Shown: positions 27,177 to 33,886 of the stretch, one piece after another
How positions within the stretch are numbered: the stretch's first letter is position 1
Layout of the letters: the number at the start of each line of letters is the position of its first letter
DNA from: Euzebya sp.
GTDB taxonomy: Bacteria > Actinomycetota > Nitriliruptoria > Euzebyales > Euzebyaceae
Direction: 5' to 3'
DNA length: 54,310 nt
Assembly (NCBI RefSeq): GCF_964222135.1
Contig: NZ_CAXQBR010000092.1
Coordinates: 1 to 54,310 of the forward strand
Made by a program: the position numbers and the translations under genes
The notes under the pieces: generated by a model
What the model saw: the letters and a program-made list of their open reading frames with translations, nothing else
The model's database searches: none
What the model was told of the DNA's origin: nothing

Positions 27177-29303
27177 GTGCCCACCTTGCGGAATCGCTCG
27201 ATCGCCCCCATCGCCGTCCCGGCCGCCGTCATCCTCATCGTCGTGATGATGGTGGTGCCGGTGCCGACTGCGCTGCTGGACCTCCTGCTGGCGATGAACA
27301 TCGCCGCCGCGCTGCTCGTCATCCTCGCGTCGATGCAGGTCAACCGACCCCTCGACTTCGCGGTCTTCCCGTCGCTGCTGCTGGTCCTGACCCTCTTCCG
27401 GCTGGCCCTCAACATCTCGACCACCCGGTTGATCATGCTGGACGGCTACGCCGGCAAGGTCATCGAGGCGTTCGGCAACTTCGTCATCGGCGGGTCGCTG
27501 GTCGTCGGCCTGATCGTCTTCCTCATCCTGGTCGTCGTGCAGTTCATGGTGATCACGAACGGCGCCGGCCGCGTGGCCGAGGTCGGCGCGCGGTTCACCC
27601 TCGACGCCATGCCCGGCAAGCAGATGGCGATCGACGCCGACCTGAACGCCGGCCTGATCGACGAGGCCCAGGCCCGCAAGCGCCGCGAGGAGGTCGCCGC
27701 CGAGGCGGACTTCTACGGCGCGATGGACGGTGCGTCGAAGTTCGTCAAGGGCGACGCGATGGCGTCGATCATCATCACCGCGATCAACCTGATCGGCGGC
27801 CTGGTGATCGGCGTGGTGCAACAGGGCATGGACGTCGGCGAGGCTGTCTCCACCTTCAGCCTGCTGACCGTCGGCGACGGCCTGGTCTCCCAGCTCCCCG
27901 CGCTCCTGATCTCCATCGCCTCGGGCATCATCGTGACCCGCGCGGCCACGGCCGGCGACATGGGCACCGACGTGGTGCTGCAGTTCAGCCGCCAGCGCGG
28001 CGCCATCCGCCTCGGCGGCGTGGCGGTCGCCCTCATGGCGCTGCTCCCCGGCCTGCCGTTCGTGCCGTTCGTCGCGGTCGGTGCCGCCCTGTGGCTCACC
28101 TCCAGCAAGCTCCCCGACCCCGAGGAGGCCAAGCGCCGGGCCGCCGAGGCCGAGCGCGAGCGCGAGGACGAGGCGATGCGCGCCGCGCTGCCCGACCCGA
28201 ACTCCCCCGAGGCCATCCTCGAGGACGTCCAGGTCGAGAGCCTGCAGCTCGAGATCGCCTACGACCTCATGGACCTGGTCGACCCCGCCCGCGGCGGCGA
28301 CCTGCTCGACCGGGTGAAGGCCCTGCGCCGGAAGGTCGCCGGCGACCTCGGCATCATCATCCCGCTGGTCCGCACCCGCGACAACATCGAGCTGCCCCCG
28401 AGCACCTACTCGATCCGCGTCCACGGCGTCGAGCTCGGCCGCGGCACCGCGCCGGTCGGTCACGTCCTCGTCATCGGCGACGACACCCCGGCGTTGGGCG
28501 AGGGTGGCGGCGACGTCCCCGCCCGCACCGGCATCGCCGCGCTGCCGGGCACCCAGACCGTCGAGCCGGTCTTCGGCCTGCCGGCCCGCTGGGTCCCCCA
28601 GGAGTACCGCCAGCAGGCCGAGGTCATGGGCGCCACGGTCGTCGACCGGTCGTCGGTCATCACGACCCACCTGGCCGAGGTCGTCCGCACGAACGCCGCC
28701 CGGCTGCTCAGCCGGACCGACACCAAGCTGCTCGCCGAGCTCGTCAAGGCCCAGGCCCCCACGGTCGGCGAGGAGCTGACCGCCAGCCAGCTGACCCTCG
28801 GCGACGTGCAGAGCGTCCTGGCCGAGCTGCTGGCCGAGCAGGTGCCGATCACCGATCTGGTCCGGATCTTCGAGGTGCTGACCGAGCGCGGCCAGCACAC
28901 CCGCGACGTCGAGCCGCTGGTCGAGTCCGTCCGCGCGATGCTCGGCCCGGCGATCTCCTCGGCGCTGGCCGTCGACGGCCGGCTGGCCGTCCTGGTCCTC
29001 GACCCGATGACCGAGCACGCCGTCGTCGAGGCGGTCCGCCCCGGTGCGACCGGGTCGTTCCTGGCCCTGGACCCCCAGCTGTCCGAGCGCCTCGCCGTCG
29101 AGGTCGCGCGGTTGGCCGAGCAGGCCGAGCAGCAGGGCGAGTCCCCCGTGATCGTGTGCTCCCCGCAGGCCAGGCCGGCCCTGCGCCGCCTGGTGTCCCA
29201 GGTGATCCCCCGCCTGCCGGTGCTCGGCTACGCCGAGATCGGCCCCCAACTGACAGTCGAGACCGTAGGAGTGGTGAACGTTGGCAACCCCGCAGCGGTT
29301 TGA
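27177..29303 (+). CDS. flhA: Flagellar export apparatus protein FlhA
   Basis: Nonameric export gate and substrate-docking platform. 708 residues. Eight TM helices in the N-terminal 310 (ALLDLLLAMNIAAALLVILA, PLDFAVFPSLLLVLTLFRLA, LNISTTRLIML), the FHIPEP-type loop represented by QFMVITNGAGRVAEVGARFT, and LDAMPGKQMAIDADLNAGLI, with the conserved Asp/Arg residues for proton-driven export. The soluble C-terminal domain from about 345 ends HNEI/LGYAEI-like (LPVLGYAEIGPQLTVETVGV). GTG 27177 is taken as start; the ribosome site is weak. Overlaps the FlhF-like gene by 23 bases. Confidence 0.95.
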   Translation: MPTLRNRSIAPIAVPAAVILIVVMMVVPVPTALLDLLLAMNIAAALLVILASMQVNRPLDFAVFPSLLLVLTLFRLALNISTTRLIMLDGYAGKVIEAFGNFVIGGSLVVGLIVFLILVVVQFMVITNGAGRVAEVGARFTLDAMPGKQMAIDADLNAGLIDEAQARKRREEVAAEADFYGAMDGASKFVKGDAMASIIITAINLIGGLVIGVVQQGMDVGEAVSTFSLLTVGDGLVSQLPALLISIASGIIVTRAATAGDMGTDVVLQFSRQRGAIRLGGVAVALMALLPGLPFVPFVAVGAALWLTSSKLPDPEEAKRRAAEAEREREDEAMRAALPDPNSPEAILEDVQVESLQLEIAYDLMDLVDPARGGDLLDRVKALRRKVAGDLGIIIPLVRTRDNIELPPSTYSIRVHGVELGRGTAPVGHVLVIGDDTPALGEGGGDVPARTGIAALPGTQTVEPVFGLPARWVPQEYRQQAEVMGATVVDRSSVITTHLAEVVRTNAARLLSRTDTKLLAELVKAQAPTVGEELTASQLTLGDVQSVLAELLAEQVPITDLVRIFEVLTERGQHTRDVEPLVESVRAMLGPAISSALAVDGRLAVLVLDPMTEHAVVEAVRPGATGSFLALDPQLSERLAVEVARLAEQAEQQGESPVIVCSPQARPALRRLVSQVIPRLPVLGYAEIGPQLTVETVGVVNVGNPAAV

Positions 29304-30726
29304 GGGTTCCTCCATCGAGGCGGTGCTGGCCGAGGTCCGCACCGTCCTCGGCAGCGACGCCGAGATCGTCGAGGCCAACAAGATCCGGTCCGGAGGGCTG
29401 GGCGGCTTCTTCGCCAAGGAGTCCTACGAGGTGTACGCGACACCGGGTGCCGGGCGGTCCAGCACCGACAGCACCGGTGCCGCGGACGGCAGCGCAGGGG
29501 TCACCGGCCCCGCGCCCACCGACCCCGCACCCACCGGCGCCTCGGCGAGCGCGGCCAGCGTCTCGTCGGTCTCCGCGTCCCTGCTCGACCTGGCCGACCG
29601 GGTCAGCGCCGCGGAGTCCGGGGTCGCAGCCGAGGCCCCGACCCGCGACGTGACCCCCGACGACACCTCGGTGGCCCACCGCCTCGGCGACCTGCTCGCC
29701 GGACGTCCGACCAGCGCACCGGCGGACTTCGAGCCGCTGTCGACCGCCGAGATGCCGCGGATCAGCACCGAGGGCGGCGCGTTCAACGACGTCCTCCAGC
29801 GCATAGCGGCCGACGCCGGTCCCGACATCGCCGACGCCGTCGGCGCGCGACTGGCTCCGGCGCCGACCCGTCCGGCCGGCCTCGCCACCAGCCACCCGCA
29901 CATCCCGACCGTCGACCACGAGGCCATCGCCGACGCCGCGGCTGCCGCCGTCGCCGCAGGCACCGCCGACGCGGGGCAGGTCCCGGTCCCCGCCGCGGAG
30001 GTGCCCGACGCCGCTCACAGGGCCGTCGAGCCGGTCGGTGGCGCCGACCTGACGGACACCGCCGACCTCGCCGCCGTCCAGACGGCCGGCGTCCTCGCCG
30101 CGGACGAGCGCACCGCGCGCCTCATGTCGTGGCTCGAGCGGGGCAACCTCCCCCGCACGACGGTGATGACGGCCCTCCGCGGGCTGCCCACCATGGCCGA
30201 GCTGCCCGACACCACAGGCGTCGTGGTCGCCGTCGTCGGCGAGCGGGCCCAGGCCCTCCGCCTCTGCAAGCAGCTCGCGAAGGCCGTCGACGCGGACCCC
30301 GACGCGGTCGTGCTCGCCTCCGCCTCCTACCGCGGCAAGGCCGTCCCGGAGTCCCAGCGCATCACCGACGCCGAGGACGCCCAGCGCGAGCGCCTGAGCT
30401 GGCGCCGCCGCGCCACCCCGACGTTCGTCGCCGTCGAGTGCGGCCCGGGCCTCCGCGGCGCCGACAAGGAGTGGACCCGCACGGTCGTCGACACCCTCGA
30501 CCCCCACCAGGTCATCGGCGTCGTGGCCGCCTCGCGCAAGACCGAGGACGTCGAGGTGTGGCTCCAGCAGGTCGGCGGCGTCGACGGGCTCGCCCTCGAG
30601 GACGTCGAGCACACCTCCACCCCGTGGGCCGTGCTCGCCCTCGGCGTCCCCGTCGCCTACCTGGACCGCGTGCCTGCGACCCCGGAGACGTGGACCGACG
30701 CGCTCGCGGGGGCGATCGCGGCATGA
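29281..30726 (+). CDS. flhF: FlhF-like protein lacking GTPase motifs
   Basis: 481 residues from TTG 29281, supported by AGGAG 9 bases upstream. The first 60 residues (FEGSSIEAVLAEVRTVLGSD, then AEIVEANKIRSGGLGGFF) match the FlhF N-terminal module. A long Ala/Pro-rich stretch follows. Residues about 290-480 align in layout with the SRP-type G domain: ASYRGKAVPE follows the first core strand and LALGVPVAYLDRVP ends it, like the GQxVPxD region of FlhF. But the P-loop is VVVAVVGERAQALRLCKQLA instead of GPTGVGKTTT, and DTAGR and TKLD motifs are absent. It is probably a non-GTP-binding relative. Position between flhA and a PilZ gene supports a flagellar role, perhaps in placement or number. Confidence 0.8.
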   Translation: MATPQRFEGSSIEAVLAEVRTVLGSDAEIVEANKIRSGGLGGFFAKESYEVYATPGAGRSSTDSTGAADGSAGVTGPAPTDPAPTGASASAASVSSVSASLLDLADRVSAAESGVAAEAPTRDVTPDDTSVAHRLGDLLAGRPTSAPADFEPLSTAEMPRISTEGGAFNDVLQRIAADAGPDIADAVGARLAPAPTRPAGLATSHPHIPTVDHEAIADAAAAAVAAGTADAGQVPVPAAEVPDAAHRAVEPVGGADLTDTADLAAVQTAGVLAADERTARLMSWLERGNLPRTTVMTALRGLPTMAELPDTTGVVVAVVGERAQALRLCKQLAKAVDADPDAVVLASASYRGKAVPESQRITDAEDAQRERLSWRRRATPTFVAVECGPGLRGADKEWTRTVVDTLDPHQVIGVVAASRKTEDVEVWLQQVGGVDGLALEDVEHTSTPWAVLALGVPVAYLDRVPATPETWTDALAGAIAA

Positions 30727-31376
30727 GCGACGCCGGAGCGCGCTGGCCGGCCGCGGGGTCGCTGGTCGAGCTGAGCTGGCGGGTGCAGACCTTCGACGCG
30801 TCGGTCCTGCTCGCCGAGGACGAGGAGCTCATCTGCACGCCGTGCCCGCGCGCGGGCCTGCTCGTCCCGCACGCGCCGGTGGAGGCGATGGTGCGCTGGA
30901 CCGACGCCGACGGCGCGTACACCCGGCCCGCCACGATGGTCCTGGCCGACGGCGGGCACGTCCGGCTGGAGGCGTCCGGGACGACCTGTCGGACCCAGCG
31001 CCGCGCCTACGTGCGCGCCCCGGTCGCCGTCGAGATCGTCGTGGAGGACCTCGAGTCCGAACGACCGGGCGTCGCGTTCGCGTTCGACGCCGACGAGCAC
31101 GCGACCAGCGGCTGGACCAGCGACCTCAGCGAGGGCGGGGCACGCGTGTTCCTGGACGGTCCCCCGCCGCCGCAGGGCGCCCACGTGGCCGTCCGGCTCG
31201 TGGTGGACGGCGAGGCCGTCGACGCGCGGGCGCAGGTGACCCGGATCTCCGAGGGTCCCGACCGCTGCGAGGTCGGGCTGACCTTCGAGCAGCTCGCCCC
31301 CTCGGACGCCGATGTGATCAGACGACAGGTCTTCACCGCCCAGGTGGAGGCGCGACGGAACGGAGTGCTGCGATGA
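30723..31376 (+). CDS. PilZ-domain c-di-GMP-binding protein (YcgR-like)
   Basis: 217 residues. An N-terminal YcgR/FlgP-like split barrel (about 1-95; VELSWRVQTFDASVLLAEDE) precedes a PilZ domain (about 97-210). Both ligand motifs are present: the RxxxR element in TQRRAYVRAPV and DxSxxG in SDLSEGGARVF. Family members slow or bias the flagellar motor when c-di-GMP is bound. It overlaps the FlhF-like gene and the next gene by 4 bases each, so it is produced with the flagellar export genes. Confidence 0.9.
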   Translation: MSDAGARWPAAGSLVELSWRVQTFDASVLLAEDEELICTPCPRAGLLVPHAPVEAMVRWTDADGAYTRPATMVLADGGHVRLEASGTTCRTQRRAYVRAPVAVEIVVEDLESERPGVAFAFDADEHATSGWTSDLSEGGARVFLDGPPPPQGAHVAVRLVVDGEAVDARAQVTRISEGPDRCEVGLTFEQLAPSDADVIRRQVFTAQVEARRNGVLR

Positions 31377-31744
31377 CGACGGACACCACGAGGTCGACCG
31401 AGCCCGCGAAGTCGATCAACACCGTCTGGCGGTTCCCGCTGATCGTGGGGCTGTCGGTGGTGCTCGGCGCGCCCGTGCTGAGCGACATGGCGCTGATGAA
31501 CGCGAGCGACCTCGCGAACGCCGGCGTGCGCTACCTCGCCGCGCTGGCACTCGCCTGGTTCGGGGTGTCGACGGTGTTCCGGGTCATCGACCGCTACCAG
31601 CACGAGAACGCGATGGCGATCCGGCTGGCCGAGCTCGAGGTGGCACGGGCCGAGGCCGAGCGCCTCGCCGCCCTCCGGGCGGAGGCGGCCGCCGCCGAGG
31701 CCGCCGCGGCGGAGGACGACGCCCGCGAGATGGAGTCGGTCTGA
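31373..31744 (+). CDS. Two-TM protein with Ala/Glu coiled tail
   Basis: 123 residues: short polar N-terminus, TM1 at about 20-38 (FPLIVGLSVVLGAPVLS), TM2 at about 48-67 (AGVRYLAALALAWFGVSTVF), then a charged helix (AMAIRLAELEVARAEAERLA) extending into the cytoplasm. No family recognised. The 4-base overlap with the PilZ gene links it to the c-di-GMP response; it could anchor or relay the PilZ protein, which is inference. Confidence 0.8.
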   Translation: MTTDTTRSTEPAKSINTVWRFPLIVGLSVVLGAPVLSDMALMNASDLANAGVRYLAALALAWFGVSTVFRVIDRYQHENAMAIRLAELEVARAEAERLAALRAEAAAAEAAAAEDDAREMESV

Positions 31745-31796
31745 GCCCACCGGACCGCCTGGCCCGGTCCACCGGTGCCCGACGCCTGCGGTGACG

Positions 31797-31802
31797 TAGG
31801 AT
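31797..31802 (+). promoter_or_regulatory. Possible -10 element of csrA
   Basis: TAGGAT (31797-31802) is a common actinobacterial -10 form, 27 bases before the csrA start. No good -35 is visible. A GGACCG/CGGTCC hairpin at about 31752-31770 precedes it and may end the upstream transcript. Confidence 0.35.
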
Positions 31803-31829
31803 CGCACGACCCCCACGGAAGGGAACGCA

Positions 31830-32087
31830 GTGCTGGTCCTCACACGACGCTCGGGCGAGAGCATCATGATCGGAGACGACGTCGTCGTCACCGTGCTCGA
31901 CGTGCGCGGAGACCAGATCCGCATCGGCATCCGCGCCCCCCGGTCGGTCGCGGTGCCCCGCGAGGAGGTGTACGCCGAGCTGCAGGCCGCCAACCGCGCC
32001 GCCGCATCCCCCTCACCGGCCGCGCTCGCGAACCTGGGCCGCCTGCTCCCGCCGCAACCGCCCGCAGCGGACGCCGAGGACGGCTGA
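31830..32087 (+). CDS. csrA: Carbon storage regulator CsrA
   Basis: Dimeric RNA-binding translational repressor recognising GGA in hairpin loops. 85 residues: [20 protein letters not shown] and [10 protein letters not shown] contain the two RNA-contact residues, Leu4 and Arg44. The last 25 residues are a Pro/Ala extension. GTG start with AAGGGA upstream. In flagellated Gram-positives CsrA represses flagellin translation and is antagonised by FliW; no fliW is present here. A large structured RNA candidate lies 20 bases downstream. Confidence 0.95.
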
Positions 32088-32106
32088 TCGGTCGCCGGAC
32101 GCGGTT

Positions 32107-32333
32107 CGGCAGGCAGTGGTGTCCACCCTCCGGCAACGCAACGTCTCAGAGCGGCTTGCCACTCCGGCACCCGGACCCGTGAGGGTCGACAGGGTGCAGG
32201 TCGGGGAGACCCGTCGACGTGCACCTACGCGGAGCCTGACGGCTCCTCTCGGCAAGGCCGAACGGTGGTCTCCCACCAGTTAGACGAAAGTCTCCGAGCG
32301 GGTTATGTGGAGGGTGGACGCCACTACCTGCCG
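32107..32333 (+). ncRNA. Candidate 227-nt structured RNA downstream of csrA
   Basis: The ends 32107-32131 and 32309-32333 pair over 25 positions with one C-A mismatch and one G-U. Inside, nearly every segment forms its own hairpin in order: GGCAA/TTGCC (32132-32160), GACCC/GGGTC with a GUGA loop (32174-32187), GGTGCA/TGCACC (32193-32225, further paired inside), GGAGCC/GGCTCC (32231-32246), CGGC/GCCG (32250-32260), GGTGG/CCACC (32264-32277), AGAC/GTCT with a GAAA loop (32282-32293). The two GNRA loops exist only on the + strand, which sets orientation. A single-stranded CCGAGCGGGTTATGT precedes the closing helix. No plausible frame covers it. End-pairing and length recall the raiA-motif RNAs of Bacillota and Actinobacteria, but I cannot confirm a family. 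A MITE is less likely because no target duplication is seen. Confidence 0.7.
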
Positions 32334-32373
32334 GCGCCCTCTCACTCTAGCGGGACCCGCAGGCCTCGCAGAC

Positions 32374-32427
32374 GCCGTCGAACAGGCCGTCAGTCCTGGA
32401 ACAAGCCCTCAGTCCTCGAACAGGCCC
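32374..32427. repeat. Tandem 19-bp repeat spanning the 3' end of the FHA-LuxR gene
   Basis: TCAGTCCTGGAACAAGCCC (32390-32408) repeats the gene end TCAGTCCTCGAACAGGCCC (32409-32427), and a partial third copy is at 32374-32389. Read on the - strand the repeat encodes Gly-Leu-Phe-(Glu/Gln)-Asp-stop twice: the C-terminus and stop codon have been duplicated. Confidence 0.8.
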
Positions 32428-32990
32428 ATGCGCATGGCGGCGGCGACCGCGGCGGTGCGGTTCCGCGCGCCGAGGCGGTCGAAGACCTCCTGGCAGTGCG
32501 CCTTCACGGTCCGCTCGGTGACGCCGAGCTTCTCCGCGATCTCGGGGTTGGTGAGCCCCTCCCGCAGGTACTCGAGCACCTCACCCTGCCGCGGGGACAG
32601 GATCGGCTTGGCCTCGAGCGGTTCGAGCTCGAGCACCTCGGTGTCGTCGTCGCCGGACATGTTCGCCCCGCGGTCCTCGAAGCGCGTCTCGACGTTGCCG
32701 AACTTGACGACGTCACCGTGCTTGAGCGCGGCCGAGCCCTGGACCTGCTCGTCGTTCACCCAGGTCCCGCCGGTCGACTTGAGGTCCTCGATCAGCACGG
32801 CACCTGCGGCCTTGCGGACCGCGGCGTGCGCACGGGAGACGTGGGGGTCGTCCAGGACGAGGTCCGATGTGGACCGCCGGCCGAGGATCTGCTCGTCGGC
32901 GTCGACCACCAGGACGCGGCCCTTGAGGGGCCCCTCGCTGGTGACCACGAACATGGGGAGCGGCGTGAGCCGTTTGGCTGGTCCTACCAC
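32409..32990 (-). CDS. FHA domain plus LuxR-type HTH regulator
   Basis: 193 residues. FHA domain at about 20-100 with the phosphothreonine-site residues ILGRRSTSDLVLDDPHVSRA, HA, and IEDLKSTGGTWVND; LuxR HTH at about 128-190 (LSPRQGEVLEYLREGLTNPE, IAEKLGVTERTVKAHCQEVF). No receiver domain, so the input is probably Ser/Thr kinase phosphorylation rather than a histidine kinase. Ends GLFED. Start could also be the Met 12 codons in (MFVVTSEG). Overlaps the PHP gene by 7 bases, so the two are coupled. It is convergent with csrA and the RNA candidate. Confidence 0.88.
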   Translation of the reverse strand: MVGPAKRLTPLPMFVVTSEGPLKGRVLVVDADEQILGRRSTSDLVLDDPHVSRAHAAVRKAAGAVLIEDLKSTGGTWVNDEQVQGSAALKHGDVVKFGNVETRFEDRGANMSGDDDTEVLELEPLEAKPILSPRQGEVLEYLREGLTNPEIAEKLGVTERTVKAHCQEVFDRLGARNRTAAVAAAMRMGLFED

Positions 32991-33841
32991 TGGCTGACTT
33001 CTCCTCCGGCCCGCGAACGCAGCTCGTCGACCACGTCGTCCTGGCTACAGTCTGCACCCATGGTGGCCGATTGTGCCGCACCATGGAAGTCGGTGCCGCG
33101 CGTGACCACGAGGTCGCGGCGGGTGGCGACACGATGCCACACCCGGGCCGCGTCGGGCTCGTAGGCCTCCCGCGGGGACTCGATCCCGGCCAGCCCCGCG
33201 GTGCACATCGCGTCGAGGAGGGCCTGGTCCACCCCTCCCCAGGTGGGGTGGGCGAGCACCGCGGCGCCCCCCGCGCCGCGGATGAGCTCGACGGCGCGGA
33301 CCGGCCCCAGCGCCCCCTTCGGCACGTAGGCGGGGCCGCCCTCGCCGAGGTAGTCGGCGAACGCCCGCCCGACCGTGGGCACCAGCCCCGCCTCCACCAT
33401 CGCGCGGGCGACGTGCGGACGGCCGAGGGGGGCCGCCCCCGCGGTGACCAGCAGCTGCTCGGGATCGATCGCGCCCCCCATGTCGTTCACCTTGGCGACC
33501 ATCGCGAGCGCCCGGTCCCGTCGCGCGGTCCGCAACCGGTCGAGCTCGCGGCGCAGCGACGGGTCGGCGTCGCTGACGAACAGGCCGATGAGGTGGACGC
33601 TGCGGGCCGGCCCCTCCACGCCGGCGGGTGGGGGCACCTCGGCGGACAGCTCGATCCCCGGGATCCAGGTCAGCCCGAAGGTGGCGCAGGCCTCCGCCGA
33701 CTCGTCGAAGTGGTCGACGGTGTCGTGGTCGGTGATCGCCAGCGCCTCGAGCCCGCTGGCCCACGCCATGCGGGCCAGGTCGTACGGGCCGGCGTGGCCG
33801 TCGGAGTACGTGGTGTGGCAGTGCAGGTCGGCGGCGCCCAT
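32984..33841 (-). CDS. PHP-domain phosphoesterase
   Basis: 285 residues starting GAADLHCHTTYSDGHAGPYD. The metal ligands of the PHP fold are visible: HCH in the first motif, ITDHDTVDH, the Glu in IPGIELSAE, HPTWGG and GTDFHG near the end. Relatives include 3',5'-nucleoside bisphosphate phosphatases and 5'-3' RNA/oligonucleotide exonucleases (RNase AM/TrpH type), which is the likely activity. ATG 33841 is chosen over the longer frame because it begins immediately before the first motif. Confidence 0.88.
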   Translation of the reverse strand: MGAADLHCHTTYSDGHAGPYDLARMAWASGLEALAITDHDTVDHFDESAEACATFGLTWIPGIELSAEVPPPAGVEGPARSVHLIGLFVSDADPSLRRELDRLRTARRDRALAMVAKVNDMGGAIDPEQLLVTAGAAPLGRPHVARAMVEAGLVPTVGRAFADYLGEGGPAYVPKGALGPVRAVELIRGAGGAAVLAHPTWGGVDQALLDAMCTAGLAGIESPREAYEPDAARVWHRVATRRDLVVTRGTDFHGAAQSATMGADCSQDDVVDELRSRAGGEVSQW

Positions 33842-33886
33842 CGCCGCTGACGGTAGGGGGACGGTGTGACAGGTCGGCGGCCGCAC

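Follow-up and report, generated by a model that had tools for sequence, protein, structure and literature searches.

The window analysed here, the whole 54,310-nt stretch of DNA, contains the gene of a structured RNA, hereafter the Euzebyales RNA, whose family is new to Rfam and near-universal in one actinobacterial order, as supported by model searches, covariation and the absence of Rfam matches. It is practically certain that a conserved, single-copy non-coding RNA gene exists at this locus and that it is transcribed from the minus strand. As to its function, our preferred but still tentative reading is an independent gene for a trans-acting structured RNA that is bound by RNA polymerase (RNAP), as a counterpart of the 6S, Ms1 and CoRP RNAs.

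Locus and coding content

The minus-strand model R3, which was built from 20 sequences, matches the RNA of the window at 32334-32106 (-) with 128.1 bits; the start of the gene is expected near 32337 and its end is predicted near 32106 (Table 1). The RNA is about 230 nt long in the window and 185-261 nt across species, and the element occurs once in the 5.06-Mb source genome. The original prediction had the element begin 20 nt past the csrA stop codon with no gene inside it, and both statements hold. Reading frames are not kept at the locus, the spacing between the two conserved cores runs through all three frames across the homologues, and no long ORF is common to them; a protein-coding reading was thus ruled out.

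Table 1. Features of the Euzebyales RNA gene and its neighbours (positions in the window)
Feature	Position	Strand	Evidence
Structured non-coding RNA gene	32106..32337	minus	Model R3 match, fold z-score, homologues, covariation
-10 element (TAGAGT) in the gene's own promoter	32344..32349	minus	TANNNT here in 24/25 homologous loci
P1, 5' strand of closing helix (RNA sense)	32309..32333	minus	17/22 model pairs changed on both sides
5' core strand ACAUAACCCGCUCGGAGACUU, with invariant CUCGGAG (32292-32298)	32288..32308	minus	Invariant columns, 20 sequences
Hairpin P4, GAGUGG-CAAG-CCGCUC, contains invariant GAGUGG and CUC	32149..32164	minus	U-G 19/20, U-A 1/20
3' core strand CUCUGAG	32145..32151	minus	Invariant in 20 sequences
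P1, 3' strand of closing helix (RNA sense)	32107..32131	minus	As for P1, 5' strand
FHA-LuxR regulator gene, upstream, codirectional, constant neighbour	32409..32990	minus	Pfam FHA 5.6e-19, GerE 9.9e-17
csrA, convergent, incidental neighbour, outside the system	31830..32087	plus	Pfam CsrA 3.8e-25

Strand and promoter

The element is nearly a palindrome, and for this reason BLAST and the two early models (R1 and R2) matched both strands and could not separate them. The minus strand was assigned on the basis of a conserved -10 element, an excess of G-U pairs, and a wobble pair in hairpin P4. The hexamer TANNNT was found just outside the closing helix on the minus strand in 18 of 18 early homologues and, with later loci added, in 24 of 25 (the sole exception being locus L071), counts that come from related and hence not fully independent loci. 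The chance expectation from the density on the minus strand of the loci is 0.9% per 12-nt window, and on the plus strand, as a control, the hexamer turned up in 2 of 18 within 90 positions. In loci with a helix start that could be located, the hexamer stops 5-12 nt short of it, which would put the start site at the foot of P1. A scan for the -35/-10 consensus found no good -35 element at this promoter in the window, and no recognisable terminator or U-tract was seen on the 3' side of the gene.

When the consensus pairing was found de novo, G-U cells outnumbered A-C cells by 102:20 on the minus strand, compared with 37:61 on the plus strand; P1 alone has 30 G-U and 6 A-C cells on the minus strand. 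Of 20 sequences, 19 have U-G at the P4 pair and one has U-A; on the plus strand the pair would be a kept C-A mismatch. The plus-strand RNA of the original prediction was therefore abandoned, being ruled out by promoter conservation and G-U counts, and the GNRA loops that had been seen on that strand are not features of the transcript. The case illustrates that a gene close to a palindrome may be assigned to the wrong strand, and that promoter position and wobble counts decide the matter.

Fold, covariation and conserved core

Read on the plus strand, the 227-nt element folds at -134.7, where shuffled sequences average -97 (z -7.69; reached by 0 of 200 shuffles), which is far better than chance, as had been claimed; the minus strand folds equally well (z -7.45). 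The closing helix (32107-32131 with 32309-32333) has 25 positions with one mismatch and one G-U (read on plus), exactly as described beforehand. Of the seven hairpins proposed within it, the general picture of a folded RNA stands, while the exact set is specific to this species and is not conserved. The parts kept across species are the closing helix with one long arm, hairpin P4, and a pair of invariant core strands; the predicted folds combine the long closing rod with a multi-branched head and a centre that can be paired in two ways.

Covariation, which had been named as a check, is strong. In alignment A6 (20 sequences, 58 pairs), 33 of the 58 pairs show changes on both sides, compared with 16.7 in shuffles, and 0 of 500 shuffles reach 33; 17 of these pairs fall in P1 and twelve in the long arm, P2. 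The covariation score is 0.269, against 0.133 for shuffled alignments and 0.05-0.07 with slid partners. Kinship of the sequences inflates such counts, and the weight rests on the slid controls and on six hold-out genomes, outside the build of R3, which score 91-149 bits.

In A6, the invariant sequence is CUCGGAG for the 5' side and GAGUGG...CUCUGAG for the 3' side; the single-stranded CCGAGCGGGTTATGT, picked out earlier as conserved-looking, does fall within one of the pair of blocks with the highest conservation. The invariant centre consists of the CUCGGAG and GAGUGG...GCUCUGAG strands atop a rod of about 25 bp. CUCUGAG has two possible partners, either CUCGGAG or P4 through its CUC, and both pairings occur in predicted folds; since the whole strand is invariant, covariation cannot choose between them.

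Distribution and novelty

BLAST found the RNA in three congeners, model R1 in 10 of the 66 genomes searched in the class (a count that leaves out two weak loci, L016 and L017, with E about 1e-3 and both without the core), and model R2 in 16 of the 396 searched in the phylum, all of one order. With model R3, the RNA was found in 27 of 30 genomes of that order (Euzebyales-type Nitriliruptoria), with one locus each; one of the 27, G008, is weak (E 0.005) and keeps the 3' half only. R3 found none in the remaining 36 genomes of the class, where two matches at E 0.6-1.0 were all that appeared, and, with stricter filters, none outside the order among the 396 genomes sampled from the phylum. The 3' core, searched as an exact pattern, occurred on only six contigs among 84,980 species genomes, and these belong to Nitriliruptorales, Euzebyaceae and Egibacteraceae MAGs.

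In two loci, L076 (G008:C149) and L053, only P4, the 3' core and the 3' strand of P1 are recognisable and the 5' half is unrelated sequence; these half RNAs may reflect a join made in assembly or the decay of a copy, and they were left out of the set.

Rfam 15 gave no match at gathering thresholds anywhere in the window. At E<=10, three matches lie near the element, all at chance level, and none was obtained on the element in 17 homologous loci. Together with the covariation, this bears out the suggestion that an RNA not in Rfam would be a new class. No earlier report of the Euzebyales RNA was among the top literature results, in a search that covered the subscription literature thinly.

Comparison with known RNAs

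No match was found to raiA, Ms1, 6S or any other Rfam family, and all of these were ruled out as the identity of the RNA. The Ms1 model (RF02566) found nothing in the source genome, but was silent in the control genomes too, so that a diverged Ms1 elsewhere is conceivable; it also found nothing on the 17 homologous loci (E<=10). As a negative comparison, we used the Ms1 locus L050, which was found with a published Ms1 primer as the pattern and in which the Rfam library calls Ms1 at 296 bits; R3, with filters off, returned nothing of full length or score at this Ms1 gene. The same locus, from a Mycobacterium-like genome, carries a 6C RNA about 1.1 kb from Ms1 (1346-1652 and 2784-2859).

Ms1 binds the RNAP core. 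The Euzebyales RNA resembles Ms1 (MTS2823, scr3559) in being actinobacterial, intergenic and a single gene with its own promoter, and in having both ends in a closing structure, and the Streptomyces form of Ms1 is of about 230 nt (PMC9130861). It differs in that there is no sequence or model match either way, in its multi-branched head, and in its neighbour: Ms1 is syntenic with HAD hydrolase and oxidoreductase genes (PMC9130861), whereas such synteny is absent at the Euzebyales RNA, which lies beside the FHA-LuxR gene and has an oxidoreductase gene nearby only in some Euzebya.

6S RNA forms a single rod with an open central bubble, binds the sigma-70 holoenzyme and templates pRNA. Its model (RF00013) matched in 5 of 14 control genomes and found none in the source genome. 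The Euzebyales RNA shares with 6S a long closing stem, a conserved centre and a gene of its own, and its strand with two possible partners recalls the refolding of 6S; in contrast to the single rod of 6S, its head is branched in the predicted folds, and its centre can be paired in two ways.

Kinship with the raiA-motif RNAs had been suggested from the long closed shape. Like raiA, the Euzebyales RNA is a compact RNA of about 200 nt closed by a long P1, and raiA is common in Actinomycetota, with model matches (RF03072) in 136 of 396 genomes of the phylum. Membership is nevertheless not borne out: the conserved letters differ, the raiA model found none in the source genome (where the control genomes were silent as well) or anywhere in the order, and R3, with filters off, returned nothing of full length or score at ten raiA loci. 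In the sample, raiA was also not found in a Mycobacterium-like family (f29) or a large-genome family (f23). A mutual exclusion of raiA, Ms1 and the Euzebyales RNA is a possible pattern in the phylum sample.

CoRP of Corynebacterium, which was found by RNAP RIP-seq, is likewise an actinobacterial structured RNA, specific to a lineage in which 6S and Ms1 were not found (PMC11077062); the two are likened by description and not by sequence, and RNAP binding of the Euzebyales RNA is putative.

Proposed role

In the preferred reading, the RNA would be transcribed from the minus strand by its own promoter, starting at the foot of the closing helix that ties both ends together. It would be an abundant, housekeeping-type RNA acting in trans, and it may bind a protein complex through the conserved centre above the rod of about 25 bp. 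RNAP would be the likeliest partner, and this RNA would then be the lineage's counterpart of 6S, Ms1 and CoRP. More speculatively, the 3' strand might give two conformers, by pairing with P4 or with the 5' core.

An RNAP-binding, 6S/Ms1-like role, put forward by analogy, is possible, and we hold it with reserve. It is suggested by the anatomy (ends tied by a long rod, an invariant centre, an own promoter and a housekeeping-like spread) and by the fact that neither a 6S nor an Ms1 could be recognised in the source genome, in the light of the proposal that each species has one abundant RNAP-bound RNA whose sequence differs between lineages (PMC11077062). Against it count the branched head, unlike the single rod of 6S, the lack of Ms1-type HAD hydrolase synteny, and the lack of a recognisable terminator. 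Rather unlikely, in our estimation, is a reading in which an undescribed, order-restricted class of abundant regulatory RNA that arose apart from 6S and Ms1 binds RNAP or another central machine via a conserved core that switches between two pairings, each excluding the other.

An ornate RNA of the raiA/OLE/ROOL type, stable and acting in trans with a function other than RNAP binding (another protein, a ligand, or an RNA-only assembly), is a serious though unproven contender. The multi-branched, very compact fold with invariant core strands would suit such an RNA, as would the distribution of raiA: frequent in the phylum, it had no match in this order and did not co-occur with the Euzebyales RNA in the sample. 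However, this non-overlap could be plain phylogeny, many other genomes being without both, and there is no sequence or model relation to raiA or to any Rfam family.

Gene neighbourhood

In 24 of 25 loci, the FHA-LuxR gene lies upstream of and codirectional with the RNA; where the -10 element is present, the stop codon of the gene is 19-93 nt ahead of it. This arrangement raises the reading of the RNA as a 3' element of the FHA-LuxR transcript, i.e. a stabiliser, a processed 3' sRNA or a feedback regulator of FHA-LuxR, which we consider improbable: the RNA has its own -10 element in 24 of 25 loci, and in the small, low-GC genome G004 (locus L037), where the FHA-LuxR gene is found on the opposite flank and points towards the 3' side of the RNA, the RNA still has the -10 element ahead of it. 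In most homologous loci, a gene for a PHP-domain enzyme (32984-33886, minus strand, in the window) lies upstream of the FHA-LuxR gene; the enzyme resembles models of nucleoside bisphosphate phosphatase and RNase RNM, below their cut-offs, and a link to RNA turnover is possible from this resemblance.

The gene on the 3' side varies among the homologues, being convergent with the RNA in some genomes and codirectional in others; hence cis-regulation of that gene was ruled out, and the RNA is a stand-alone gene, neither an accessory of csrA nor a leader. The csrA link of the original prediction, as a CsrA sponge or other csrA-linked regulatory RNA, did not survive the comparison and is very improbable. 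In its favour, the end of csrA is 20 nt away in the window and csrA lies about 2.1 kb away in two congeners, there past a PhzF-like gene and an oxidoreductase gene (named by eye); but csrA is convergent to the transcript and is adjacent in the window only, and no array of GGA hairpin loops of the CsrB/RsmZ type was seen by eye among the conserved columns of A6. In the window, csrA is downstream of flagellar-looking genes, among them, as named by eye, FlhA-like (27177-29303) and FlhF-like (29281-30726) genes; the region from these genes to the end of csrA is 27177-32087 on the plus strand. Flagellar genes ahead of csrA are unusual in an actinobacterium.

The long near-perfect inverted repeat might suggest a MITE, a terminator that is merely bidirectional or, the DNA being GC-rich, a palindrome arisen by chance. 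Such readings have next to no probability, given a single copy in the genome at one fixed locus per genome across the order rather than the multiple copies by which a MITE was to be recognised, compensatory changes and invariant core strands that are unpaired or alternatively paired, and a 3'-side gene whose orientation changes between convergent and codirectional from genome to genome.

Significance

The Euzebyales RNA is a concrete candidate for an RNAP-bound RNA of a lineage's own, such as the RIP-seq study cited above (PMC11077062) proposes for lineages that have neither 6S nor Ms1, in an organism in whose genome, the one searched, neither the 6S nor the Ms1 model matched. The order-wide family, for which a candidate promoter and a covariance model are given here, enlarges the small set of bacterial RNAs that are both large and highly structured.
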